NCBI GenBank assembly: GCA_019412865.1
Contig: DXOJ01000301.1
Span: forward strand, 1 to 26,628
DNA: 26,628 bases
Direction of reading: 5' to 3'
Origin: Bacteroides sp.
Lineage (GTDB): Bacteria; Bacteroidota; Bacteroidia; Bacteroidales; Bacteroidaceae
Shown: positions 384-14,280 of the stretch, in pieces
How positions within the stretch are numbered: position 1 is the stretch's first letter
Layout of the letters: each line of letters begins with the position of its first letter
Position numbers and translations under genes: made by a program
The notes under the pieces: generated by a model
Told to the model about the DNA's origin: nothing
Database searches by the model: none
Seen by the model: the letters and a program-made list of their open reading frames with translations, nothing else

Positions 384-1472
384 TTATCTCTTGAAAGCAT
401 TAAATGCGCTGGTGGGTTTACCGGTATCGTCAAACAAGCCTTTGTGATAGCCTTTCCAACCACCGTAACTTTGAGGTTCCCAAGTGAAAACACCGAGGCA
501 TTGATCTATTTCTTTAGCTTTAGTCATGAAATCGGTAAAAAACTCTTCTGCTTCTTCATAATTCCAGTAAATACCAAGCTCACACATCATGACAGGTGTA
601 TTATATCGTTCAATCAGACTTTTCATATTAGCAATACAATCATTGTTTAATTGTCGCCAGTCTTGGGTATCCGGTTCCGGATAAAGAGACATGCCGATTA
701 TATCCCATTTTCCCCCATCAGCTTTCAGACCGTCAAACAGCCAGATATATCGATTGGGATTATTGCCCTGATCGATATGTACGATAACTTTAGCTTCCGG
801 GTAGATTGTTTTAACGGCATCGTATCCCGCTGTTACCAGTTGAGCGAAGTTGGCGGTTTTTCCGCTGCTAGCAGCTCCGTCAGGTTTTAACATGCCTGTA
901 CGTGTCTCATTACCCACCTGCACCCATTCTACATCGATACCTCTTGCTTTGATTGCACTTAATACTTCAGTGGTATGGTCGGCTACTGCTTGTTTTAATT
1001 CATCAAAGGATAGGTCGGCCCAAGCCGCCGGTTTCTCTTGCCGTCCCGGATCCGCCCAAATATCACTATAATGGAAATCAATCATAATACGGTAGCCTAA
1101 GTTGTGAGCGCGCCACGCCTTGGTCACTACATCGTCTTTATCACACCATCCTTCCGGATTAAAGAAACCTTCCTCTTCCGACCATCCCTGATCGGGATTT
1201 ACCCATACACGTAGACGGATGGCATTCATGCCCAAATCCCGGAGTAGTGACATACATTCATGTCCGTTTCCTTCAGCATCATAGAATTTGTAACCTTCCT
1301 TTTCCATTTCTGTCAACCAACTGACATCGGCTCCTTTGGCAAAACCAGACATGTCATAGGCTTGATCTTGATTTTCCGGAAATACCGGTTTATCATCATT
1401 GTTGTCACAGGCTGTGAAGAAGGCTCCGCACAGTAGTGCGGAAGCCATCAATATATTTTTGAATCGTTTCAT
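384..1472 (-). CDS. GH53 endo-beta-1,4-galactanase, surface lipoprotein
   Basis: A 362-residue protein that cuts the beta-1,4-galactan side chains of pectin (and related galacto-oligosaccharides) internally. Residues 1-21 form a lipoprotein signal peptide ending at Cys22; the acidic stretch DNNDD that follows resembles the Bacteroides surface-export signal, so it probably sits on the outer face of the outer membrane. The rest is one GH53 (clan GH-A) barrel. VQVGNETRTGML contains the acid/base Glu189 and VMMCELGIYW the nucleophile Glu298; DFHYSDIWADPGRQ is a strong family signature. Length is normal for a single-domain GH53. It sits 23 bp after the SusE-like gene and 65 bp before GH2, in the same operon. 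The product should be short galacto-oligosaccharides imported by the SusC/SusD pair. Confidence 0.95.
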   Translation of the reverse strand: MKRFKNILMASALLCGAFFTACDNNDDKPVFPENQDQAYDMSGFAKGADVSWLTEMEKEGYKFYDAEGNGHECMSLLRDLGMNAIRLRVWVNPDQGWSEEEGFFNPEGWCDKDDVVTKAWRAHNLGYRIMIDFHYSDIWADPGRQEKPAAWADLSFDELKQAVADHTTEVLSAIKARGIDVEWVQVGNETRTGMLKPDGAASSGKTANFAQLVTAGYDAVKTIYPEAKVIVHIDQGNNPNRYIWLFDGLKADGGKWDIIGMSLYPEPDTQDWRQLNNDCIANMKSLIERYNTPVMMCELGIYWNYEEAEEFFTDFMTKAKEIDQCLGVFTWEPQSYGGWKGYHKGLFDDTGKPTSAFNAFKR

Positions 1473-1495: not shown

Positions 1496-3238
1496 TTATT
1501 TATTAGAAGCGGAATAAGTACCGTCTATCAGATTGACTGTGATAGTATAAGTTCCGGCAGTCAATGGAATACCGTCGTTGCTGTTATAATATAGTTTTCC
1601 ATTGCTTCCTCCATACGCTCCGGTCCAGTCATCTTTTATATAAAATTTGATACCCCAGTTAGAATCTTGTGATAACGTAATCGTTCCCGAATATTCTCCG
1701 GTAGTTCCTGTTGTGGCGATAGGATATAAATTGTTATCCCCCTCTATTCCATAATAACAATAGATGTTATTTCCAACTGCATAAGTTTTATAGGTCAACT
1801 CTTTTAATGAAACGTCAAACAGATAAAGATCGGCAGCAGGTGCAGGAATATTCTTTGCTTGTCCATTTACAAGAGTTCCAGCTTCTGCCGTACTTTCCGA
1901 GTCATCATTGGCAATGGTGTACATTTTGTCGGTGTCCCATGCATCTCCTGATGAGAACAGGGTCATCGCATAATTTCCGTATTGTGAGTTGACATCCACT
2001 ATACCTGCATATTTTTGTTCTTCCTTATAGTACACTTCAATTTTATGATCGTATGTCCAGTCGCTACCTTGGCCGATTCCCGGCAAATACAAATATTGTC
2101 CCTCTTCCGGTTCCGGCTCCGGTTCTATAGAACCTTCTTCTACTGATACAGTCCATTGTTGAGGGTTGCTTAGATCGATAGAAAGCGTACACTCTCCTGC
2201 CTGTGGCACATTAACTGTTATGTCTCCAGCTGTTTCTCCGAGATTTAACGCTGTGCTGCTGCCGCTGAATGCCATAGGAGTATCTTTAGCTTTCGTGTCA
2301 TCAATGTCGTATCCACCATTATCATTCGGATTGGCACATGTATGGTCATATAATTTACCCGTTCCACTGATTTGGATAGTCATACTTCCGGCTGCATTAG
2401 CATTGAATGTAGCTGTCCATTTTCTGCTTGTTTGGTTAAATTCCATTGTTGCATCGATATCTCCACTGACGTTCAATGTTGGTATTTGTATTCCGTTCCA
2501 TTGCTTATTATTCGTGTCAAATGTGATATAATAACAACCTCCAACTCCTGGGAACCAGCATTTCCAATCCCCTGCTGTAGTTAGTAAGAACGGCATTCCG
2601 GTTTCGTTGTCATTTCTCCAGATCGTTCCGTTGGCTTCTTTAATCAGGAAGTTGTACCAGGCATTTACTCCTACAAATCCTTTGTATACACCATCTGTAT
2701 TTACTGAAAATAAACTCATACCGGTGTCTGTGCCGTTTTGATCCAGCATGCTGGCGAAACGCATATCCAGTTCATAAGGAGTGATGTTGATTACTTCCAC
2801 ATTGCTATATGCCGGTTCGATGTTGTTCCCCGTTGTTCCTTTCAGTCTGAAATAGAATTTAGTGGCTACATTGGCTTCAACCCCCAGATTATTGGTGACA
2901 ATATTTAATTCGGCTCCATTGTAAGTCTTGGAAAGAGAGGTTTCGGTAGACTCAACGATCGTTCCGGAGAAATCTTCGTTTAATGCAACCTGTATACTTG
3001 TTTTCAATAAGTTGGTTGGTTTGAAATCCGGATTGTTGATAGCCAATGTCCGGTCGGTCCATGCCAGTGACAGAACATTCTTTTGTGCGATATCTTCCGT
3101 CAATACAATGTTGTTTGTAGAAGCTATCAATTCATTTTCTGTCAGGCTCGATAAATAATATTTATCTGCGTCATCTTCACAGGCACTCCATATAAAGAGA
3201 GCCGCCAATGCAAGGAACAGACTATTTATAGTTTTCAT
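1496..3238 (-). CDS. SusE/SusF-like surface glycan-binding lipoprotein
   Basis: A 580-residue lipoprotein with a signal peptide to Cys20, followed by the acidic residues EDDAD as expected for surface display. The N-terminal part (about 25-150) has the SusE look, with the VLSLAWT motif and an immunoglobulin-like beta pattern. Several beta-rich modules follow, then a PEPEPEE linker near residue 375 and two C-terminal modules rich in Trp and Tyr, of the kind that bind sugars. No catalytic motif is visible. Such proteins hold polysaccharide at the cell surface for the neighbouring endo-enzyme and transporter. It follows susD by 23 bp. The ligand is inferred to be beta-1,4-galactan from the operon; binding residues cannot be named from sequence alone. 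Confidence 0.85.
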   Translation of the reverse strand: MKTINSLFLALAALFIWSACEDDADKYYLSSLTENELIASTNNIVLTEDIAQKNVLSLAWTDRTLAINNPDFKPTNLLKTSIQVALNEDFSGTIVESTETSLSKTYNGAELNIVTNNLGVEANVATKFYFRLKGTTGNNIEPAYSNVEVINITPYELDMRFASMLDQNGTDTGMSLFSVNTDGVYKGFVGVNAWYNFLIKEANGTIWRNDNETGMPFLLTTAGDWKCWFPGVGGCYYITFDTNNKQWNGIQIPTLNVSGDIDATMEFNQTSRKWTATFNANAAGSMTIQISGTGKLYDHTCANPNDNGGYDIDDTKAKDTPMAFSGSSTALNLGETAGDITVNVPQAGECTLSIDLSNPQQWTVSVEEGSIEPEPEPEEGQYLYLPGIGQGSDWTYDHKIEVYYKEEQKYAGIVDVNSQYGNYAMTLFSSGDAWDTDKMYTIANDDSESTAEAGTLVNGQAKNIPAPAADLYLFDVSLKELTYKTYAVGNNIYCYYGIEGDNNLYPIATTGTTGEYSGTITLSQDSNWGIKFYIKDDWTGAYGGSNGKLYYNSNDGIPLTAGTYTITVNLIDGTYSASNK

Positions 3239-3261: not shown

Positions 3262-4839
3262 TTAATAATTTTCATTATATAAATTGGGATTAGCCGTCAG
3301 TTCGGTAGCCGGTATCGGATAGATATTATACTTGCTATTTACAGCTACGCCACCTTTTTCACCACCTTTCCATTGCCACAGATATTTGTCGGTAGTGAAC
3401 ATTCCGAAACGGATTAAGTCGGTGCGACGGTATCCTTCCCAATAAAGTTCACGGGCACGTTCTTTCAGGATAAAGTCCAGTGTCAGGTCGGCTTCCGTTT
3501 TATTATGAGAGTCGTCGCCATAAGCACGTTCTTGCAGTTTATTGATATATCCCAATACAGTTCCTTTATCACTACCCGTTCCGCCACGTACCACAGCTTC
3601 CGCCATCATCAGATATACGTCTGCCAAACGGAATAAAGGATAATCTGTATTTACACCACCATCTGCAGTGTTGGAAGCAGTTGCTCCGGCATCTGTCAGG
3701 TTAGTCCATTTTTCTACAAAATATCCGTTTGACTGGTTATCTATCACATCCAGATATTGTGTTTGTCCGTCAGTGAAGAACATATAGCGCTTATCATCAG
3801 TTCCGCTAAATAAGACCGGAATTTCTCCGCGTACACGGAACATTCCCCAACCGCTTTTCACACCATAATTTTCAGGAATCTGTTTGTCGGAAGTATTACT
3901 TACGGCACCACAGACGATGTAGGTGGAAGAACCCCAAGATACGGTATGTGTAGCGTCCACAGGTAAGGTGAATATAATTTCGTTGGCAGTACGCTTATCA
4001 TTATCCGCATTGAATAGTTTGCTGTAGTCATCTTCCAATGAATATCCCTGTGCGATAGCCTGTTGACAGGCAGCGATACATTCTGTATACTTCGACGTTT
4101 CAATATACACCTCTGCGTTCAGATAAAGTTTGGCAAGCAATGTATAGGCGGCTCCTTGTGAAGCACGTCCATAAGGACAATCCCCTTTGCTAAGCATATC
4201 ATTTGTAATGGCATTTAATTCAGATTCTATATAACTGAAAATTTGTGCAGACGTATAACGTGGAGGCAGATAGCCGACAGTCGGGTCATTCTCTGTTATG
4301 AACGGGATGTTGCGGAATAAGTCCATTGCATGGTAGTAGAATAAAGCACGCATGAAACGAGCTTCAGCCCGGTAATGGCGGATTTCAGCTTGATCCTGTT
4401 CGCTAAATTCTGCCAGCTTTTCATCGGTTGCGTTACGGAGAAATTCATTGCACAATGCTATGTTATAATAAATCCGATAGTACATGTCCGATACCCAAGG
4501 ATCATTAGCATCCCAACTTAAATAAGTCAATCCACTCACATTATCACCTGACAACCAGGTAGAGGCCACCTCGTCTGTTCCACATTCCTGCAGGTTGAAG
4601 AAGCAACGCATATAATCCTGTCCACTATTACTGCTCAAGTCTGGATCACCCCCTTTTTCCTGTCCGGTGGTCACCATGGCAGCATATATCTTACCTAAAA
4701 CGGCTTTATAGTTTTCAGCATTGGTATATATCGTAGAAGATGTTTCGTCTTCATGCGGATATTGGTCTAAGTCGCCTATGCAGGAGTTCAGCAATAATGC
4801 ACTGCAAAAATAGAAGGCTGTATATAATATCTTTTTCAT
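3262..4839 (-). CDS. susD-like: SusD/RagB family glycan-binding lipoprotein
   Basis: A 525-residue outer-membrane lipoprotein that acts as the lid and glycan-binding partner of SusC. The signal peptide ends in LLNSC with Cys20 as lipidation site. The body has the usual SusD helical TPR-like repeats: the DQAEIRHYRAEARFMRALFY segment is the classic family helix, and RLADVYLMMAEAV followed by ILKERARELYWEGYRRTDLI marks the C-terminal RagB half. The protein ends in the common IYPIPATEL...NPN pattern. Length is typical. It lies 21 bp downstream of susC, so the two are co-transcribed. It should bind galactan oligosaccharides released by the GH53 enzyme. Confidence 0.96.
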   Translation of the reverse strand: MKKILYTAFYFCSALLLNSCIGDLDQYPHEDETSSTIYTNAENYKAVLGKIYAAMVTTGQEKGGDPDLSSNSGQDYMRCFFNLQECGTDEVASTWLSGDNVSGLTYLSWDANDPWVSDMYYRIYYNIALCNEFLRNATDEKLAEFSEQDQAEIRHYRAEARFMRALFYYHAMDLFRNIPFITENDPTVGYLPPRYTSAQIFSYIESELNAITNDMLSKGDCPYGRASQGAAYTLLAKLYLNAEVYIETSKYTECIAACQQAIAQGYSLEDDYSKLFNADNDKRTANEIIFTLPVDATHTVSWGSSTYIVCGAVSNTSDKQIPENYGVKSGWGMFRVRGEIPVLFSGTDDKRYMFFTDGQTQYLDVIDNQSNGYFVEKWTNLTDAGATASNTADGGVNTDYPLFRLADVYLMMAEAVVRGGTGSDKGTVLGYINKLQERAYGDDSHNKTEADLTLDFILKERARELYWEGYRRTDLIRFGMFTTDKYLWQWKGGEKGGVAVNSKYNIYPIPATELTANPNLYNENY

Positions 4840-4860: not shown

Positions 4861-7791
4861 TTAGAAGTTGAAACCTACATTCAGTGAGAAGGTGCGCGGA
4901 CGTGGATAGAAGGAATTATCCACACCATTAGGAACCTCCGGGTCGACACCGCTGTACTTGGTGATACAGAATACGTTCTGAACCATAGCACTCACATTCA
5001 GGCTACATCCTTTGCAGATTTGACCGAAATTATAGTTCAACGATAGATTATCCATTTTCAGGAAAGAAGCATTTTCTACATAATAGTCGGACAAGTACTG
5101 ACGGGTCTGGAATCCGGTTTTCAGATAACTTGTAGACAGGTTATTCAATTGATAGGAGTTGTAGCTTACTGTTTCCCAGGCTCCAGCGTTCATAGCCATG
5201 GCATTATAGACATAGTTGCCGATGTTTGCACGCAAGCTTGTACTCAAGGTCCATTTTTTCCAGCGCAGTGAAGTACTGAAACCGAGAATGTAATCCGGAG
5301 CGGGAGAGTGGTAACGATATAAATCGGAAGAGTTGATTTGTCCGTCTCCATTCACATCAAGATAGGCACCTTCTACCGGTTTTCCTGTTTTTTCATCATA
5401 GAGTTGATGATAAACGTAGAACATATAAGGGGCGTATCCCTCACTTAATGTTTGTACTTGGTAACTGTCGATATATGGACCTACTGAAGTATTTGTAGCG
5501 ACAGTTCCGGCAGATAAAGACAGATTTTTTACCTTCATCTTTTGCCAAGTCATGTTGAAGCTGACATCCCAGTTCCAGTCTTCTGTCTGGATAGGAGTTG
5601 CATTCACGCTGAATTCAATACCCTGACTGTCCACATTTCCCACATTGGTGGTGATGTTACGGTCGAAGGTGGTACCTGCTGCGGCGGGAACTGTTGCAAT
5701 CAAATCTTTAGTTTGGCGAGTGTAGTAGTCAAAGCTACCGGTAATACGGTCTTCCAGAAAGCCGAAGTCGAATCCTATATTCCATGAAGTAGTGGTTTCC
5801 CATTTCAAGTCAGGGACGTAAGAGCTGGGACGGTAGGTATGAATATATTCATTTCCCATGATACCTTCCGCACCATTTTGGCTTTGAGTATAGATAGGTA
5901 GATAATTGTAGTTACCAATACCGTCCTGTTGTCCGGTCACACCGTAACTGGCACGAATTTTCAGATTGCTCAATACTTTATTATCTTTCAGGAAAGATTC
6001 TTCTGTCACTCTCCATCCCAAGGCTACAGAGGGGAAAGTACCCCAACGTACATTCTTGGCAAAGCGTGAAGTAGCGTCCCGGCGGATGGTGGTAGTTAGC
6101 ATATAACGTGAATCGAACGAATAATTCAGACGACCGTAGTATGAAAGTAGTACATGGCGTTCGTCTTTAGCCTTTGAAGTCTTTTGTATTTCTCCCAGCG
6201 TGTTCATTTCGTAGTAAAGCGGAGTTGTAACTTTCCAGTACTGATAATCGTAACCGGCTGTTACGTCAAAACTACTTTTAATCGATTCTACCAATTTGTT
6301 GTAGTTGGCATACAAAGTCAGCAGGCGATTTTCTTTCTTCTGTGGACCGTAGCTGTAATCCAGACCGGAAGTGGTGTAATTCTGTGCAGCTTCCGCCGGA
6401 ACATATACACTTCCCTTACCTTGTGCATAGTCGTAACCTAATGTAGCGTGTAGCTTTAAATCGGGGAAGAAATGAACACGATAGTCCGCATCGATATTTC
6501 CGATGAAACGTCTTACGTTACTTTGGGAATCATTCATTTTGATAAGTCCCACCGGGTTCATTACAGCACCGTTGGCTGGTGCACCTGTATTGTCTATTGC
6601 TTCCGTGTATCCTCCAAAAGTATCCAGTCCTGAATAAACAGGGATGGTTGGATTCATTGTAGAAGCTGCCCAGATAGCATTCGTGTTACCAAATGTGTTG
6701 TTGTTAATAGACCCTTTCGCATTAATATTCAGTTTCAAGTGGTCTTTGAAGAAAGAGGGGGTTACCATGATGCTTCCCGTGTAGCGTTCTGCGTTGTCTG
6801 TGCGTAACAAACCGCTTTGATTGTAATAACCTACTGATATACGAAATGGCCAGTTTTTAGCAATTTTTCCGGAGATACTAAGATTATTATCCGTACCGAA
6901 AGCATTCTGGTAAATCTCATCATTCCAGTCCGTATGGGCTGTGCCGAGTAGAGATTGTTGGGCAGTCGTTCCTTGCGTACGGATGGTGTTGACAAATTGG
7001 TCATAACTTAGCATATCAGCCAGCTTGGTACGTGTCTGGATGGAATTTGTCGTACTGAATGTAATCTTCAGTTTATCCGAACTTCCTTTCTTGGTAGTAA
7101 TCAGAATAACCCCGTTGGATGCACGCGAACCGTAAATGGCAGTCGAAGAAGCATCTTTCAGAATGGTCATACTTTCAATATCGTTCGGGTTGATGAGGCT
7201 AAGGAAGTTCCCGTCATTACCGCTGATGCCTCCCTGTTCCAAAGGAACGCCGTCCAGTACGATCAAAGGGTCATTACTAGCGTTCAGTGAAGCACCACCA
7301 CGCACACGGATCGTACTTCCCGCAGTGGGAGAACCACTGTTGGACATGATTTGCACACCGGAAATCTTACCATTAATCAGTTGCTCGGGAGAGCTGACCA
7401 ACCCCATGTTGAAGTCCTTGCTGCTGACGTTAGTTACCAAACCTGTCAGGTCACTTTTACGCTGCGTACCATAGCCGATTACTACAACGTCGCTCAATAC
7501 CTGTGAATCACTTTTCAACTGGACATTCAAAGTAGTACTGTTGGCAGGAACTGGTACTACCTTTGTTTCATATCCTACATAAGAGAATTGCAACTCTTTG
7601 CTGCCCTGTGGCACATTGAGTGTATAATTACCGTCGAAATCGGTCACTGTTCCGGTAGAAGTACCGACAATGAGGATACTTACTCCGATCATCGGTTCCT
7701 TGTTCTCGTCAATCACTTGTCCGGTGATTTTCTTGCCTCCTTGTTGGGCGAAGGCAGGAATGGTGCCTCCTAAAAAGGCTGTACACAACAT
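4861..7791 (-). CDS. susC-like: SusC/RagA family TonB-dependent transporter
   Basis: An outer-membrane beta-barrel that imports oligosaccharides with SusD and TonB energy. From the ATG at 7789-7791 the product is 976 residues: a carboxypeptidase-regulatory-like domain (about 20-95), a TonB box region (VVVIGYGTQRKSDLTG), a plug with IRVRGGASLNASNDPLIVLDG and the SusC signature around GSRASNGVILITTKKG, then the barrel ending in NVGFNF with terminal Phe. The start is doubtful. From this ATG the signal peptide is only about 15 residues with no basic N-terminal part. The frame stays open upstream to 7843 and encodes a better signal peptide (basic KVK then NLRHLTVLL), but has no ATG, GTG or TTG start. 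The true start may be non-standard or the ATG may be lost. Confidence 0.95.
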   Translation of the reverse strand: MLCTAFLGGTIPAFAQQGGKKITGQVIDENKEPMIGVSILIVGTSTGTVTDFDGNYTLNVPQGSKELQFSYVGYETKVVPVPANSTTLNVQLKSDSQVLSDVVVIGYGTQRKSDLTGLVTNVSSKDFNMGLVSSPEQLINGKISGVQIMSNSGSPTAGSTIRVRGGASLNASNDPLIVLDGVPLEQGGISGNDGNFLSLINPNDIESMTILKDASSTAIYGSRASNGVILITTKKGSSDKLKITFSTTNSIQTRTKLADMLSYDQFVNTIRTQGTTAQQSLLGTAHTDWNDEIYQNAFGTDNNLSISGKIAKNWPFRISVGYYNQSGLLRTDNAERYTGSIMVTPSFFKDHLKLNINAKGSINNNTFGNTNAIWAASTMNPTIPVYSGLDTFGGYTEAIDNTGAPANGAVMNPVGLIKMNDSQSNVRRFIGNIDADYRVHFFPDLKLHATLGYDYAQGKGSVYVPAEAAQNYTTSGLDYSYGPQKKENRLLTLYANYNKLVESIKSSFDVTAGYDYQYWKVTTPLYYEMNTLGEIQKTSKAKDERHVLLSYYGRLNYSFDSRYMLTTTIRRDATSRFAKNVRWGTFPSVALGWRVTEESFLKDNKVLSNLKIRASYGVTGQQDGIGNYNYLPIYTQSQNGAEGIMGNEYIHTYRPSSYVPDLKWETTTSWNIGFDFGFLEDRITGSFDYYTRQTKDLIATVPAAAGTTFDRNITTNVGNVDSQGIEFSVNATPIQTEDWNWDVSFNMTWQKMKVKNLSLSAGTVATNTSVGPYIDSYQVQTLSEGYAPYMFYVYHQLYDEKTGKPVEGAYLDVNGDGQINSSDLYRYHSPAPDYILGFSTSLRWKKWTLSTSLRANIGNYVYNAMAMNAGAWETVSYNSYQLNNLSTSYLKTGFQTRQYLSDYYVENASFLKMDNLSLNYNFGQICKGCSLNVSAMVQNVFCITKYSGVDPEVPNGVDNSFYPRPRTFSLNVGFNF

Positions 7792-7897
7792 AAGTAGTAC
7801 AGTCAGATGGCGTAGATTTATTGATAATATATTTATTTTTACTTTTTATTTAAAAATCAGCGGCTTTTCCCTTTCTGTCTCTTCCGTTTGCTACCCC

Positions 7898-8008
7898 CTT
7901 TCAGAAGGCTTCAGACGTGGTTCAGACGAAAGATTTGTTCCTCACCGAGGAAGACCTTGTTCCTCACCGATGAACGACCCTTTCCTCACCGAGGAACGAA
8001 GGCTTCGA
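7898..8008. repeat. Phased short repeats between the GH147-like gene and susC
   Basis: Three copies of TTCCTCACCGAGGAA (the second with T for G at the twelfth base) start at 7938, 7960 and 7982, exactly 22 bp apart. Copies 1 and 3 are perfect inverted repeats: 6-bp arms around ACC. Two copies of TTCAGACG start at 7910 and 7921, 11 bp apart. The 9-bp palindrome GAAGGCTTC flanks the array on both sides at 7904-7912 and 7998-8006. Spacings of 11 and 22 bp keep the copies on one face of the helix, as in binding sites of AraC-type proteins. As transcribed RNA they could also form short hairpins in the leader of susC. No consensus -7 promoter is visible in this gap. Confidence 0.8.
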
Positions 8009-8030
8009 CAACGGGGAACTTTAAGAACGA

Positions 8031-10640
8031 TTATTCCAGCCAGATATTTCCTAGTTCAATCTCAACTAACTCTTTCTTGTTTCCTGACATTGACAACTCC
8101 AGCTTTTCAATCCTTTCCGGTAAAAATGCAATTTCCGTTTCCGGATGGAAATACTGTTTCAAAAATGTCGGATAAGCTATCGGCAGCAGTGCCGTGTCTG
8201 TCTGGCGTAAATCTTTCAACGGTATTCGTATGATTCCCTCCGATGATGGAGCAGGACAAGGGCTTTTATAAGTATATCCGTCTGACGTTACGAAACCGGC
8301 ACTGAATCCTTCCGGAAGTGTTTTCGTTCGATTTACCCGGATACAGAGAACGCTACAATCCTTTACTCTTTCTTTTCTTTCTTCAATCAGGTTCTTTACG
8401 AACGTGCGGAGGAAATAGTGCGGATTTTCTCCTTTAGGAGTAAACCGGAACCGGAGCAAAGGTTTTTCCACCGGAGAAGAATCAACCAAAGTACGTTGGA
8501 GATCATTCCATTCGGGAAGCGTGTATGCTTCTATCCGGCTATCTGCATCCGTAATAGCCAATAGTGGTATCGCACTATCTGGGGCAACAACACGAGTAGT
8601 CCAATAGGCTCCGGAAGTATAATTCCAGTCCAGTGGATTTCCCTTTATTCCTGATGATGAATTCCTGTAACCGGAATTTCCTGTGGGATAAGTGCGAGTG
8701 CTGTTGCCCCGGCATACGATGATGTTATACCTGAAACAATCATCCTTTATTTCTCTAGCGGGTATCGTTGCCTGATAGGTATATCCGCTTGTACGTTTCA
8801 TCTTGATATATGAATTATGCTCATTCCAAAAAGATATCTTATCGGTGTAGATAATCACTGAATCCGGGAGTTCGGTTCCTACTACCTGTGCATTAATCGT
8901 CAAATCCTTATTTGCTTCAGTGGTTGCCGATGGAATATGAACGACTTTATAATCTGTCACACGTGGAGCAGGAGCCACATATTCTCCGATGCGGATGGAA
9001 TTCCATTGAGAGTCTGCCTGCCAGTTCTGTTTGGGCGTACAGTTTTTACGTTTCAGCAGATAGGTACCCGGACGAAGTCCGCGGATAATCCCGTCTGTCA
9101 CATTTCCTTTCTGCTGATTTCCTTGATTGAGGGCCGTAAAGGTAAATTCCATCCCTAAATCAGGTATTTGCAAAGCCATGTCCCAAGCACCATAAGCGAT
9201 GGTAACCACTTCTTTGTTGAGTGACGGTTTGGCAAACGGATCGTTCACTACTACTGCGTCCGGCATCACTTCCAGTCTCCAGACTCCCGGTTCGAGGCAA
9301 TCCATGAAATAAGCACCTGTTCCCTCATAATGAATAACCGGGGAACTGCCACAACCGGCAATGGAAACAAGTTGTGACGCATCTTTGGGCCGGGTGTTGG
9401 TATGATTGGAATAATAGAATTTCTTTCCATTATTTAATTCGCTCAAGTCCTCCGTATAACTGACGCGAAAACCATCACCAAATAAAGTGTCCTGTGGATA
9501 GCTGCCGTATGATTCACCTCTTTTCAGACTGTGTGCAGCTTCGGCAGCTATCTTCATACTGATAGCTTTATGAGGCGTATAGGCAAGATTCAAGAAATGA
9601 GTCTGATATTCCGTATTGGCATAAGCGATATCCATCGGATCATACGCAAACTGGGTAATCCATTGGAAGCCTGCCGTACGGAAAGTGCGTACCATGGCCG
9701 GATACATATAAGAATACATGATATCTGCCGGATCGAACTCATATACCATCCGTGTTTTCTTATCGAATCCTTTCACTTTATCCGAAAAGGGAATATCATA
9801 GCGGTCTATATAAGGAAGGAAATTTCCCTGCTGTGTCTGTCCGGATACCAGTCCGATGGGATACCATTGATAAGTAGTTCCCTGAATGGCAGTTTCGTAA
9901 TAAGACTCTACTACATATCCGTTGTGGCTTACATTATAGAATACAGGTTTGCGGTTTCCTGTTTTATTGATCGCTTTCAGCATCCGGTTGATATAGGCTT
10001 TTACCTCTTCTTTCGTACCGGAATGACAAGGTTCATTATTGATTTCGAATCCAACAATGGAGGGATCGTCTTTATAAGCTAACCCCGTATATGGATTGAC
10101 GTGCTTCACCAAACCATGAAGATAGGTTTCTTGTGCAGCGATAGCTTCCGGATGGGAGTGCATATCGCATTTATCATATTTATAGGAGAAGCCGCCCGTC
10201 TGTATGTTTCGTTCGGGATATCCGTTCCCGAAGTTGGTCTGTGCGGTAATCACAATATGAATATTACGTTCTTTGAGTTTGGCAATCAGGTAGTCCATCA
10301 AGTCGAGATGCTCGTTTTCGAGGAGATTTCCCTGTCCGTCTGTCAGTTCCACATCCCATAAATGAATACGGTAAGCATTCAGTCCCAGACGGGAGATATG
10401 ATATACATCTTTGTCTATAGCAGCTTTGCGGTCCAGTCCCAAATATCCAATGGCACGGTAAGCATGGGCGAAAGGCAGCGTATAATTAACACCGAAAAAG
10501 GAAGCCTCCCGGCGGGTGTCACTCCAACGCATCACCCCATTTCCATCTATATATATAATAGGTGTAGAGGATGATTTGCCTTGCACTTTGACAAAGGCAG
10601 ATATCAAACAAATAAAGGTAAGGATCAACAGTCTTTTCAT
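8031..10640 (-). CDS. Clan GH-A glycosidase, probable GH147-type beta-galactosidase
   Basis: An 869-residue secreted enzyme with a signal peptide of about 21 residues and no lipobox cysteine, so probably periplasmic. Residues 40-360 form a TIM barrel of clan GH-A: GFEINNEPCH gives the acid/base Glu203 after Asn202, and RMVYEFDPAD the nucleophile Glu301, the expected places at strands 4 and 7. Residues about 420-560 and 560-869 are beta-rich accessory domains, possibly sugar-binding. GH147 was founded on an exo-beta-galactosidase acting on pectic galactan in Bacteroides ovatus; length, barrel layout and this galactan operon fit, but I assign the family from recollection. It is the first gene of the operon, with a candidate promoter 30 bp upstream. 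Other clan GH-A families such as GH5 or GH42 relatives remain possible. Confidence 0.72.
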   Translation of the reverse strand: MKRLLILTFICLISAFVKVQGKSSSTPIIYIDGNGVMRWSDTRREASFFGVNYTLPFAHAYRAIGYLGLDRKAAIDKDVYHISRLGLNAYRIHLWDVELTDGQGNLLENEHLDLMDYLIAKLKERNIHIVITAQTNFGNGYPERNIQTGGFSYKYDKCDMHSHPEAIAAQETYLHGLVKHVNPYTGLAYKDDPSIVGFEINNEPCHSGTKEEVKAYINRMLKAINKTGNRKPVFYNVSHNGYVVESYYETAIQGTTYQWYPIGLVSGQTQQGNFLPYIDRYDIPFSDKVKGFDKKTRMVYEFDPADIMYSYMYPAMVRTFRTAGFQWITQFAYDPMDIAYANTEYQTHFLNLAYTPHKAISMKIAAEAAHSLKRGESYGSYPQDTLFGDGFRVSYTEDLSELNNGKKFYYSNHTNTRPKDASQLVSIAGCGSSPVIHYEGTGAYFMDCLEPGVWRLEVMPDAVVVNDPFAKPSLNKEVVTIAYGAWDMALQIPDLGMEFTFTALNQGNQQKGNVTDGIIRGLRPGTYLLKRKNCTPKQNWQADSQWNSIRIGEYVAPAPRVTDYKVVHIPSATTEANKDLTINAQVVGTELPDSVIIYTDKISFWNEHNSYIKMKRTSGYTYQATIPAREIKDDCFRYNIIVCRGNSTRTYPTGNSGYRNSSSGIKGNPLDWNYTSGAYWTTRVVAPDSAIPLLAITDADSRIEAYTLPEWNDLQRTLVDSSPVEKPLLRFRFTPKGENPHYFLRTFVKNLIEERKERVKDCSVLCIRVNRTKTLPEGFSAGFVTSDGYTYKSPCPAPSSEGIIRIPLKDLRQTDTALLPIAYPTFLKQYFHPETEIAFLPERIEKLELSMSGNKKELVEIELGNIWLE

Positions 10641-10671: not shown

Positions 10672-10679
10672 CAAAAGTA
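10672..10679 (-). promoter_or_regulatory. Candidate -7 promoter element for the galactan operon
   Basis: On the minus strand these bases read TACTTTTG, a full match to the Bacteroides -7 consensus TAnnTTTG. The start site would fall near 10665, giving a leader of about 25 nt before the ATG at 10638-10640. No clear TTTG is present at the -33 position, as is common for activator-dependent promoters. Confidence 0.55.
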
Positions 10680-10710
10680 ATTTATTGGTCATTTCAATAA
10701 AAGCACAGAT

Positions 10711-10735
10711 TGGACATATAAGGATAAAAATAGGA
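10711..10735 (-). promoter_or_regulatory. Helically phased TCC motifs, candidate activator site
   Basis: On the minus strand TCCT (10732-10735), TCCT (10721-10724) and TCCA (10711-10714) are spaced 11 and 10 bp apart. They lie about 45-70 bp upstream of the predicted start site, where an AraC-type activator would bind. The neighbouring sensor-regulator is the obvious candidate. The motifs are short and chance is possible. Confidence 0.3.
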
Positions 10736-10755
10736 CGAAATGCCCCAAAACACCT

Positions 10756-13700
10756 CTACAGGTCTTCATTAAGGTACTGACGTGGCGTTTTTCCGAATTC
10801 TGCCTGAAAACATTTGGAGAAATAAGAATGATTGGAAAAGCCTACCATATACATCACTTCGGCAACGGTAAACTTCTTTTGTTGCAACAACATGGCCGCC
10901 TTTTTCATCCGGATCGATTTGATGTATTCCACTGGAGACATTCCGGTCAGCTGTTTAATTTTCCGGTAAATCTGCTTATTACTGATACCGGATAATTCAC
11001 AAAGCGCATTCACATTCAATTCCGATTCAGAAAGATGATCCTCAATCAGGCGGATAATGTTCGACAGAAATTTCTCATCTTGAGATTCTGCTTCGATTGG
11101 TTTAAGAACAGGCAACGATTCCAACTGCTTTTTCACTTGTGTCGCCGGAATCTCTTCTTTCTCTACGGCGATGACAGGAATATTCAGCCCAATGGAAGTT
11201 CCTTTTCCTTCGTTCGAGGTGACTCCGTTGATGTGACCGCCATGAAGTTCCGTATAAGTCTTGACCAGATAAAGTCCGATACCCGTACCTTCCTTATTGC
11301 CGGTATGTGGAGACTGGAAAAAGCGCTGGAAGATATATGGAATATCTTGTTGCGGGATTCCGGTTCCTGTATCAGAAACACAAATATCCAACAATTCCGT
11401 TTCTTCACGATAGAAAAGAGACAGGCGGACGCTTCCGCCATCCGGGGTGAATTTGACGGCATTTGAAAGCAGATTATCTAAAATCACTCCAAGTTTGATG
11501 GCATCCATATCAGCATAAATCTTGGCTTTATTCGTCTCGAAATGGAATGTGATCTGTTTGTTTTCCTCATAGACGGAAAACAGGCTACGGCTGAATGACA
11601 CAAGTTCGATACGCGACAAAATCAGCAGCGAATCTTTATTATCCTCTATCCGGTTGAAGTTTAATACCTGATGAATCAATGAGTTTATTTTCATTGCATT
11701 ACGCTGCACCTCCTCCAGTGTCTGTTTCTCATGCACTTCTTCTGCAACGGGGAGCAATTGACTGACAGGAGCGATGATCCGGCTAAGCGGTGTTTTTAAT
11801 TCATTAGACAAATGGGTAAAGAAAGTCATTTTCTGGCGTGATTGCTCCAGAATCTTCTCTTTTTCCATCCGTTCCATTTTCAGACGGTTCTTGACACGGA
11901 AAAAGTTGATAACCCAGGCAATGAGGCTCAAGAATAAAAGAATGTAGACAATCTTTGCCCAAAGTGTGTAATACCATGGAGGGAGAATTTTAATATTCAG
12001 GATATATGGATGCTCGGAAGGAGAACCGCTCTTTTCTACTTTGCTGATTACTAGCTGATAATCCCCATAACCCAAATTACTGTACGTAATGCGATTCGTG
12101 TTGGATTGCAGGAAATTCCATTCTTTGTCCATACCTTCCAGCCGGTAGACGAATTCATGTTTTTCTTCCAGCGAGTAGGGCAGGTCTGAAAGTTCGAAAG
12201 CCAGGTTGTTCTGGTCGTATTTTAGTTCGATAGCATCGGTATAGCGGATGTTGGGAATATCCTCTCCGGTATGCGGAGACATCAGTTGATTGTTGATATA
12301 TAAGGCAGTCAGTAAAATGGAGTGTTCCGGCTGACTCATGGCTTGTATTTCGGGACGGGATATGCCGAACCCGTCTGCACCTCCCAGATAGATATTTCCA
12401 TCTTCCGGATCAAACATGAGACTGGTGAAACGTTTATCCGTCAGGCTTTGCTGGCGGGCATCCATTGTTCTCCGGTCGATGATCCAAAGTCCGTTAGTGG
12501 TGGAAACCCAGATATGTTCTTTTACAGAGGTCATAGACAGAATCTCGTTATTGCTGAAATTGCCGAAAGAGATACTTTGCTGACTCGAGTCTTTGGGATT
12601 GATACGCATCACCCCTCCGTGAAATCCTACCCAAAGCATGCCGTCTTCATCCCGTAAAAGGTAGTTCGGGCTCTTCTCGCCACTTAATTCATCGGCAAAC
12701 AGCTTTGTCACTTGCCGCGTACGGGCATTGATTTTGTCTATTCCTTTGCTGTTGTATAACAATACCCATACATTACCTTCCGCATCAGGGACAATCTGAT
12801 TAATGAACATCCCCGACAGCCCATTATGAATGGAATAATTTTGATCGGCCACATACGATCTTCCGGCAGATTGTATCAGTTTATGTTTGTCCACAACAAA
12901 GATACCTCCGAGACAGGTGGCGATCCAAAGCTTCCCGTCAGTATCTTCAAACAGGTAATAAGCCCAGTTGGTATTATAAGTTCCTGTACTGTCTACGATG
13001 TTGTAATGTACAAATTGATGGGTATTATAGTCATAGCGGTTGATACTTCCGTCTGTGGCTATCCATAACTGCTGTTCTCTATCCTCGTAGATGTGCCGTA
13101 TCCGGTTGTGGGATAACGGATGGTTTTTATCCCCCATTCTATACCAGATAGCATCGTGTTTATTGCCTGCCGGATGGGTGAACCGGATCACTCCGTTTGT
13201 ACCTCCGAACCAATAGAATCCTTTGGAATCCCGGAACAGGGAATAGAACTGATTTCCGTCTCCTGTGCCTGTGATTTGAGAAATCGGTACAAATTGCAGC
13301 GCACTGTTATAGCGTGACAGGGAAATGCCATAATCTGTTCCCAGCCAGATATTATGTTCCTGATCCGAGAATATGTTCCAGATAATATTGTTGGTTAGTG
13401 ACTGGATATTGCGTGAATCGTGAATGATATGCTGCAAAGGTTCTTTGTCATTCTGGTACACATAAAGCCCGTTGTCTGTACCTGCCAGCAAATTTTCATC
13501 TCCGTCCAGTGCCAGTGATTTGATGGAGTTGTTATGAAATACCTCTATCGCCTTCATCTCTCCTATAGTGGGATTGTATTGGAAGAGATAACCTTCCATC
13601 CCGATCCAGATACATTGTCGGGTGGTGTCTTCCAACAGAGAATTGACAAACAAATTGCTGCCTCCCCGGTTAACGGGCAAAAGGATGTTTTCAAATTTTC

Positions 13701-14280
13701 CACTTGCCTGCACATAGCGGCATAATCCGTTGTAAGTACCTATATAAATTTGATTATCTTTTGTATGAATGATGGAATAGATGGTGTTATGAGGCAATCC
13801 GGTCTGTTTGCTGTCGAAATGATTCAGTTGACGGCTTTTTAACTGATAAGTATATAATCCGTTCAACGAACCTATCCACAATGTATCTCCCTGGAGTACC
13901 ATGGTACGGACATCCGTTGGGAAATCAGTATCCGGTTGCTCATATTTGTCTGTTCGATAGTTATAAACAAGAATCCCGTTATCTGTTCCCAGATATAAAT
14001 AAGTGTTATCTGCTATAATACCGCAGTAGATACGTGTGTTAGTACGTTCTCCATACGTGAAATGCTGTTGTGTGGAATAACCGTCATAACTGAATAAACC
14101 CTTGTTGGAACCCACCCATATCAGTCCCTCGCTATCTTGCAGGAAGCAACTAATCACCGAAGCTTCGGCCCCGAGATAGATGTTGTCGAATTGCTGATAA
14201 TTTACTTTTTGCCCATACACATTGCCACTGCTACAGTAGGCAAGGATGAGAAAAAGAATTGTTGTCATTCGTTCGCGCAT
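10756..14280 (-). CDS. HTCS-like sensor/AraC regulator lacking phospho-His and receiver domain
   Basis: A 1174-residue regulator, started at ATG 14278-14280 because a signal peptide (MRERMTTILFLILAYCSSG) begins there; an upstream ATG would add 21 unlikely residues. Order: periplasmic two-part beta-propeller of Reg_prop repeats (about 25-700, for example LIWVGSNKGLFSYDG), Y_Y_Y domain (705-765), one membrane helix (775-794), dimerisation helices (810-880), ATPase domain (925-1036, with DNLLSNAVKFT, DTGTGIP and EGTGIGLYLV intact) and an AraC-type HTH (1074-1174). Two things are odd. The H-box reads FFTHLSNELKTPL, with Asn826 where the phosphorylated His normally sits. Only about 37 residues join the ATPase to the HTH, so the usual receiver of about 115 residues is absent. 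It should still sense galactan oligosaccharides and activate the adjacent operon, but by direct conformational coupling. Confidence 0.93.
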   Translation of the reverse strand: MRERMTTILFLILAYCSSGNVYGQKVNYQQFDNIYLGAEASVISCFLQDSEGLIWVGSNKGLFSYDGYSTQQHFTYGERTNTRIYCGIIADNTYLYLGTDNGILVYNYRTDKYEQPDTDFPTDVRTMVLQGDTLWIGSLNGLYTYQLKSRQLNHFDSKQTGLPHNTIYSIIHTKDNQIYIGTYNGLCRYVQASGKFENILLPVNRGGSNLFVNSLLEDTTRQCIWIGMEGYLFQYNPTIGEMKAIEVFHNNSIKSLALDGDENLLAGTDNGLYVYQNDKEPLQHIIHDSRNIQSLTNNIIWNIFSDQEHNIWLGTDYGISLSRYNSALQFVPISQITGTGDGNQFYSLFRDSKGFYWFGGTNGVIRFTHPAGNKHDAIWYRMGDKNHPLSHNRIRHIYEDREQQLWIATDGSINRYDYNTHQFVHYNIVDSTGTYNTNWAYYLFEDTDGKLWIATCLGGIFVVDKHKLIQSAGRSYVADQNYSIHNGLSGMFINQIVPDAEGNVWVLLYNSKGIDKINARTRQVTKLFADELSGEKSPNYLLRDEDGMLWVGFHGGVMRINPKDSSQQSISFGNFSNNEILSMTSVKEHIWVSTTNGLWIIDRRTMDARQQSLTDKRFTSLMFDPEDGNIYLGGADGFGISRPEIQAMSQPEHSILLTALYINNQLMSPHTGEDIPNIRYTDAIELKYDQNNLAFELSDLPYSLEEKHEFVYRLEGMDKEWNFLQSNTNRITYSNLGYGDYQLVISKVEKSGSPSEHPYILNIKILPPWYYTLWAKIVYILLFLSLIAWVINFFRVKNRLKMERMEKEKILEQSRQKMTFFTHLSNELKTPLSRIIAPVSQLLPVAEEVHEKQTLEEVQRNAMKINSLIHQVLNFNRIEDNKDSLLILSRIELVSFSRSLFSVYEENKQITFHFETNKAKIYADMDAIKLGVILDNLLSNAVKFTPDGGSVRLSLFYREETELLDICVSDTGTGIPQQDIPYIFQRFFQSPHTGNKEGTGIGLYLVKTYTELHGGHINGVTSNEGKGTSIGLNIPVIAVEKEEIPATQVKKQLESLPVLKPIEAESQDEKFLSNIIRLIEDHLSESELNVNALCELSGISNKQIYRKIKQLTGMSPVEYIKSIRMKKAAMLLQQKKFTVAEVMYMVGFSNHSYFSKCFQAEFGKTPRQYLNEDL

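Follow-up and report, generated by a model that had tools for sequence, protein, structure and literature searches.

In gut Bacteroides, hybrid two-component systems (HTCSs) regulate the use of glycans, and they are known for doing so by a phosphorelay. Described examples such as BT4663 and BT4124 (PMC11253607, PMC3878776) share a propeller/Y_Y_Y sensor, a membrane helix, a core made of a dimerization and histidine-phosphotransfer (DHp) domain and an ATP-binding (CA) domain, and an AraC-type helix-turn-helix (HTH), and they have the setting of a polysaccharide locus and a direct-repeat operator of about 21-bp period. Ravcheev et al. 2013, who list BT4673 as HTCS_Pga and count it among the HTCSs, state that a receiver is present in all those they identified (PMC3878776). 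I consider here a stretch of Bacteroides sp. DNA of 26,628 nucleotides (assembly GCA_019412865.1, contig DXOJ01000301.1; hereafter the window), which encodes an ortholog of BT4673. It is built along the same lines but has neither the phospho-accepting His nor a receiver domain (REC), and for this protein the statement of a universal receiver does not hold.

I propose that the regulator is a working activator of its galactan locus, derived from an HTCS, that no longer uses phosphotransfer and acts as a one-chain membrane activator. This I consider likely. The sugar signal is probably passed to the DNA by a change of shape alone, to judge from the sequences discussed below.

A galactan regulator without its relay residues

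The gene lies on the minus strand and is laid out as follows.

10756..14280 (-): regulator gene, ortholog of BT4673 (HTCS_Pga), 1,174 aa
11971..14217 (-): periplasmic sensor, two beta-propellers and Y_Y_Y, residues 22-770 (Pfam; alignment to PDB 3ott/3va6)
11848..11964 (-): transmembrane and signalling helix, residues 773-811 (AlphaFold2 model)
11626..11847 (-): DHp (HisKA) domain, residues 812-885 (Pfam and a purpose-built profile)
11803..11805 (-): AAT codon, Asn826 replacing the phospho-accepting His (sequence, family comparison)
11173..11595 (-): ATP-binding (CA) domain, residues 896-1036, checked N, G1 and G2 residues intact
11083..11172 (-): linker, residues 1037-1066, at the receiver's place in REC-bearing relatives (mostly low model confidence)
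10768..11082 (-): AraC-type double HTH, residues 1067-1171 (Pfam, AlphaFold2 model)

The H box of the regulator reads FFTHLSNELKTPL, codon 11805-11803 being AAT, for Asn826. Pfam finds Reg_prop, Y_Y_Y, HisKA, HATPase_c (926-1035), HTH_18 and HTH_AraC; the ATP-site residues include N936, N940, G998 and G1000. Response_reg, which the same library finds at 83.5 bits in a REC-bearing relative (L007), was not found in the window regulator, nor was there a match to the galactan family's own REC profile. An AlphaFold2 model of the monomer (62 aligned sequences, mean pLDDT 81.8) predicts a single helix, residues 773-842, that spans the membrane segment and the first DHp helix and carries Asn826. In the model CA ends at about 1035, HTH helices begin at 1067, and residues 1040-1065 fall below pLDDT 50, mostly to about 30. 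The protein has the propeller/Y_Y_Y periplasmic sensor, the DHp and ATP-binding domains and the C-terminal AraC-type HTH of an HTCS; it does not have the phospho-accepting His or a receiver with its phospho-accepting Asp. Since both are absent, there is no phosphorelay and no REC to clamp the HTH. It resembles a pseudo-histidine-kinase in that the His is replaced and the other kinase motifs are intact, and a transmembrane one-component regulator in that input, membrane helix (from sequence and model) and DNA-binding output all lie on one chain. An earlier note on this DNA had read Asn826 (AAT, 11803-11805) at the His position, no receiver before the HTH, and an intact sensor, N, G1 and G2 boxes and HTH. 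The reading frame, the H box and the family comparison bear out the first of these, the lack of Response_reg and a linker of residues 1037-1066 the second, and Pfam with the checked N, G1 and G2 residues the third.

The note had left room for decay in one strain or an error of assembly. Neither is tenable, because the ortholog in the nearest genome (G001), 99% identical, has the same Asn and no REC; other orthologs agree, five further loci (L001-L005) are likewise without His and REC, and orthologs of several species lack both His and REC, the co-occurrence that the note had asked about. When the window regulator and 120 near homologs were compared at the H box, 109 of the 121 proteins could be parsed: the H position is Asn in 107, Asp in one, locally deleted in one and His in none (two of the 12 not parsed, those that were printed, read Asn). 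G001 as a whole has 46 Y_Y_Y matches, all 46 places of which were retrieved, with HisKA profile matches in 38 proteins. His and REC are present in 37 of the 38, and only the window regulator's ortholog has neither.

The defect very probably extends to BT4673 itself. Sensor residues 22-770 match PDB entries 3ott and 3va6, the BT4673 sensor of B. thetaiotaomicron; across the 739-742 residues aligned, identity is 82%. The database protein P0080 (706 aa) begins only late in the sensor, but every octamer tested (100%) of 3ott's C-terminal stretch occurs in it. In its cytoplasmic part the H box reads FFTNLSNELKTPL and REC is absent, which is why I assign the same state to BT4673. A 2021 review has small galacto-oligosaccharides recognised by BT4673 (PMC8002723), and in Table 2 of Martens et al. 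2011 disruption of the gene by plasmid insertion reduced growth on pectic galactan to 21.6% of wild type (PMC3243724). The phenotype says that the gene matters; it does not show the route of signalling.

Some other proteins of G001 deserve mention. An HTCS-like open reading frame (ORF) of 1319 aa, starting at 1610 of L172, gives no HisKA or HATPase profile match and a low receiver score of 29 bits, possibly a second broken relay. L157 (945 aa) and L169 (866 aa) have Y_Y_Y and an AraC HTH and no kinase match, and so are relatives that are one-component by nature. L183, L189 and L196 resemble them, with weak HTH matches.

Relay residues and receiver across the family

Eighty loci together with genome searches gave a family set of 96 rows, once 5 duplicates were removed. 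Eight rows were left out of the residue comparison: L033, L042, L057 and L142, in which the kinase core is absent, L026 and L061, which are cut short, L027, which is broken, and L081, a near copy of the window. L027 (9974-13525), the ortholog in B. reticulotermitis JCM 10512, lies in three reading frames, perhaps through assembly errors, and its H box is FFTNLSNELKTPL, with Asn.

Where REC is present, so is His, which is kept in 70 of 70 compared rows, and the checked N, G1 and G2 residues are present in all. Where REC is absent and the kinase core remains, His is gone in 17 of 18. These fall out in two ways. All seven rows of the BT4673 clade have Asn at the H position with every other checked kinase residue intact, the acidic residue at H+1 included. 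In all ten Prevotella REC-less rows the H position is R, Q, V or S and the N, G1 and G2 motifs are scrambled; one of these, L063, is still modelled as a kinase fold. The earlier note's view that His and REC went together stands for the window regulator and for orthologs of several species, and fails for L087, P0299, P0314 and P0328, which keep His without REC. The first three of these have Met rather than Thr at H+4, a position needed for phosphatase activity. The family can be arranged in stages, from REC lost with His kept, through the window regulator with its intact ATP site, to the scrambled ATP sites of Prevotella and the kinase-less forms. Of the latter, L057 is a long branch inside the BT4673 clade. 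The L142 type is common, with thousands of members in some clusters; among the 120 listed of its 745 matches, lengths are 947-990 aa and none has a HATPase domain.

A sensor-only tree requires at least five changes of REC state, which I infer to be losses. A single origin of all REC-less forms was rejected by the approximately unbiased (AU) test (p 1.4e-10), on a quick LG+G4 tree of 67 rows from which 34 of the 96 had been dropped (near copies, long branches, fragments) and to which 5 database proteins had been added; both trees carry warnings of long branches that meet and of uneven composition. A separate receiver nearby was also looked for: of 20 scanned stretches that surround REC-less genes, 19 contain no receiver ORF (the search did not extend to more distant genes). 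The sole match to the family REC profile in the 20 stretches is a 460-aa ORF in L075, and I reject an orphan receiver in the vicinity.

How often REC-less forms are met depends on the draw of genomes. When 99 genomes were drawn from the genus, a match of E 1e-200 or better turned up in 26, and nine of these are REC-less: G001, G002, G013, G086, G091 and G093 (frames of 1189-1228 aa), G062 (L087), G053 (L027) and G006 (L057), where G002, G013, G086, G091 and G093 are so called by frame length plus a full-length match, or as copies of L001-L004. Among 393 genomes drawn across the order, 20 have a match at E 1e-170 or better. Judged by frame length, short forms are not common in this draw, because 18 of the 20 frames run to 1265-1349 aa; the remaining two are G001 and a 773-aa frame that runs into a contig end.

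How could a family part with its receiver so often? Gao, Wu and Stock 2024 showed for several HTCSs that the HTH is kept inactive by REC. The hold is by an S/CHIP motif, in which the His has a conservation of 91% and is predicted to touch an Asp and a Lys of the HTH (PMC11253607). REC-less members are missing from the sequence set described there because retrieval required a response-regulator domain, and the main text of that paper does not mention BT4673. The S/CHIP His is present in 34 of 38 REC-bearing proteins of G001 but absent in all 71 REC-bearing rows of the galactan family (Thr in 53); the window regulator has no REC to carry it. The HTH Asp and Lys are kept in 51 of the 57 REC-bearing family rows that could be parsed (14 of 71 could not, nor could 24 of 38 in G001). 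From these sequences the clamp seems to have been released in the galactan family before REC was lost, and the repeated loss of REC may have been possible because of that release. The HTH side bears no mark of such a release, unless its Asp and Lys serve DNA binding.

Candidate operator and promoter, and the galactan locus

Before the gene that follows the regulator lie a candidate operator and a candidate promoter.

10700..10736 (-): candidate operator, a direct repeat GTCC-N17-GTCC (21-bp period) with the conserved bases that follow
10672..10679 (-): candidate -7 promoter box TACTTTTG (TAnnTTTG), 32 bp past the operator core

TAnnTTTG is the Bacteroides -7 consensus. The operator was sought before the first gene because the gap before susC holds unrelated repeats in the window and in L002, and an operator upstream of susC was dropped. 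(In the window that gap, 7792-8030, contains a TCGGTGAGGAA-type element in three near-copies; at the same place in L002 the repeats are of another set.) A glycoside-hydrolase-like gene within 600 bases defined the operator loci, 37 of 81 sources (the window and L001-L080). GTCY-N17-GTCY stands between the regulator and the next gene in all 37, against a resampled mean of 0.18 and maximum of 2 of 37, the rows being related and so not independent trials; any other repeat period from 14 to 29 bp occurs in at most 3 of the 37. The TAnnTTTG box follows 32-33 bp after the repeat in 34, where about 1.6 would be expected anywhere in the next 75 bases. HTCS operators are described as direct repeats of mean period 21 bp (PMC3878776), and by its sequence this one is a direct repeat of that period. 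Eight of the 37 loci are REC-less, including the kinase-deleted L042 and L033 (the L033 box is one letter off). Because repeat and box recur at REC-less and kinase-deleted loci, the DNA layout seems to be the same whether or not the regulator has the relay.

A matrix built from the sites of the 37 loci, minus three near copies, was used to scan 18 other loci. Strong matches were found in L001, L006, L007, L010, L029, L030, L043 (with the REC-bearing ortholog of B. cellulosilyticus) and L200 (the L087 locus). In the gap between regulator and susC the score exceeds the resampled maximum in L063 (28.4 vs 5.1) and L075 (11.8 vs 5.6), and narrowly in L067 (15.9 vs 12.6) and L070 (19.5 vs 16.0). Six loci are not convincing: L054, L077 and L080 stay below the maximum, as does L068, though its match is by susC; L064 and L202 rise above it away from galactan genes. 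For L202, the locus of the kinase-deleted L057, no galactan genes and no convincing operator were found. Two loci have an altered neighbourhood: in L001 (13507-16286) about 2.7 kb separates the regulator from the operator, which is still beside the hydrolase gene, and in L005 (13516-13916) the glycoside-hydrolase-like gene after the operator is reduced to a 71-bit match.

The genes past the regulator, in the order glycoside-hydrolase-like, SusC, SusD, SusE-like and GH53, are those of a pectic galactan locus.

8031..10640 (-): glycoside-hydrolase-like protein, first gene after the operator, 869 aa (PF00150, 25.4 bits, cut-off 23.5)
4861..7791 (-): SusC-like transporter (Pfam)
3262..4839 (-): SusD-like protein (Pfam)
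1496..3238 (-): SusE-like protein, probably surface glycan-binding (PF14292, DUF5111, DUF5114)
384..1472 (-): GH53 endo-galactanase (Pfam)

A proposed one-chain switch and its rivals

If the proposal is right, a galacto-oligosaccharide would bind the dimeric propeller/Y_Y_Y sensor in the periplasm, and the membrane helix, then the long helix of DHp, would carry the sensor's movement onward. The DHp-CA core, now a pseudo-histidine-kinase, would be a scaffold or conformational relay that frees or positions two tethered AraC HTHs on the 21-bp direct repeat, just upstream of the locus promoter. CA or DHp would keep the HTH off without ligand, and movement alone would switch it. The earlier note had suggested such a one-protein switch without phosphotransfer, and it finds support in the orthologs, in the absence of a receiver ORF from 19 of the 20 stretches and in the unchanged layout of operator and promoter.

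It might be said that a regulator that has lost two defining residues or domains is simply decaying, a non-functional relic. This is highly improbable. The ratio of nonsynonymous to synonymous substitution rates (dN/dS), a rough measure here, is low in all domains: its mean over six BT4673-clade genes is 0.048 for the sensor, 0.025 for DHp, 0.056 for CA, 0.093 for the linker and 0.027 for the HTH, and over six REC-bearing relatives 0.098, 0.059, 0.105, 0.176 and 0.043. On these values the kinase core of the clade does not look like decaying sequence. The operator is conserved, L001-L005 share the state and L027 the Asn, and the phenotype of the BT4673 mutant contradicts decay, unless the mutation was polar (PMC3243724). 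It is still harder to believe that another residue is phosphorylated instead. The candidate would be His823, one turn from Asn826 in the window protein, which the note had already judged an unlikely replacement. That position, three before the H position, is not conserved: in the 109 parsed proteins it is Asn in 92, Thr in 10, deleted in one and His in only 6, so that Asn is natural there in most orthologs, and no REC is at hand to take the phosphate. I reject it as phospho-acceptor.

An intact ATP site and acidic H+1 residue would also serve a kinase that works in trans, with CA forming a mixed dimer with another HTCS and phosphorylating its His, or with a separate receiver protein cooperating; G001 could supply partners, with 37 other Y_Y_Y proteins that have His and REC. 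But the HTH output is on the regulator's own chain, which has no REC, 19 of the 20 stretches scanned nearby offer no receiver, and the operator layout is kept beside two kinase-deleted relatives. I consider a partner in trans improbable. Better placed, and quite possible without being the likelier case, is an ATP-gated pseudokinase, in which ATP binding and closure of the CA lid are obligatory to the switch in the BT4673 clade. The checked ATP-site residues are invariant in all seven clade rows and the dN/dS of CA is 0.056. Against this stand the N, G1 and G2 motifs scrambled in 10 Prevotella REC-less rows and the lack of any CA domain in L033, L042, L142 and L057, the last a long branch of the same clade.

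Several points weigh against a working activator that has given up phosphotransfer. The full conservation of the checked ATP-site residues in the BT4673 clade fits a kinase still acting on something. Loss of REC does not of itself imply loss of autophosphorylation, because L087, P0299, P0314 and P0328 keep His. Of 23 REC-less rows parsed at the HTH, 21 retain the Asp and Lys, where a simple release of the clamp predicts otherwise, unless the two residues serve DNA binding instead. Four of the eight Prevotella loci scanned (L054, L064, L068, L077) have no convincing operator by the locus, and a function for the kinase-deleted forms is presumed from where their genes lie and from the operator. 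Because dS is near saturation (1.1-1.7), dN/dS is only approximate, and the BT4673 mutation may be polar because the published mutants are plasmid-insertion disruptions.

A broader idea is one that I hold with more doubt than I do the ATP-gated switch: that the phosphorelay is dispensable in principle throughout the galactan family. Ancestral loss of the clamp might have removed the need for REC, and the family might have returned to signalling of the one-component kind on five or more occasions along a shared route, with REC, His, ATP site and whole kinase lost in turn and the promoter layout unchanged; in full-length members, too, the sensor would act directly on the two HTHs.

Should the galactan regulator indeed do without a relay, the usual view of HTCSs would fail for one or more known functional systems. 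Natural intermediates, from loss of REC to loss of the kinase, on apparently one operator, are also on offer in the family, and they reduce the question of what holds a tethered HTH dimer inactive, and what activates it, to simple domain swaps. In the open-licence literature I found no text on BT4673 lacking His or REC, on repeated loss, or on a graded series to kinase loss on one operator. Regulators without the His are already known (DivL, BT4236), as are transmembrane one-component regulators. BT4236 has Gln848 in place of the phospho-accepting His, and a phosphorylation-independent mechanism was suggested for it; it differs in keeping its receiver (REC motif CSIP), and the account of it draws no connection with a repeated loss of REC or with the family of galactan regulators (PMC11253607). 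DivL, the pseudo-histidine-kinase of Caulobacter, has Tyr for His, keeps the other kinase motifs and functions without kinase activity, but its described role is to control the pathway of another kinase and to read a response regulator in the phosphorylated state (PMC4211667). DivL is not known to have a DNA-binding domain. Of the two PDB entries for BT4673, both of the sensor domain only, 3va6 bears the title 'putative hybrid two component system' and 3ott the title 'putative one component system', which is a precedent beside DivL and BT4236. Transmembrane one-component regulators (PMC10269533), like L157 and L169, place sensor, membrane helix and HTH on one chain with no phosphotransfer. What sets the window regulator apart from them is its DHp-CA core, still present and conserved, in which the ATP site is intact.

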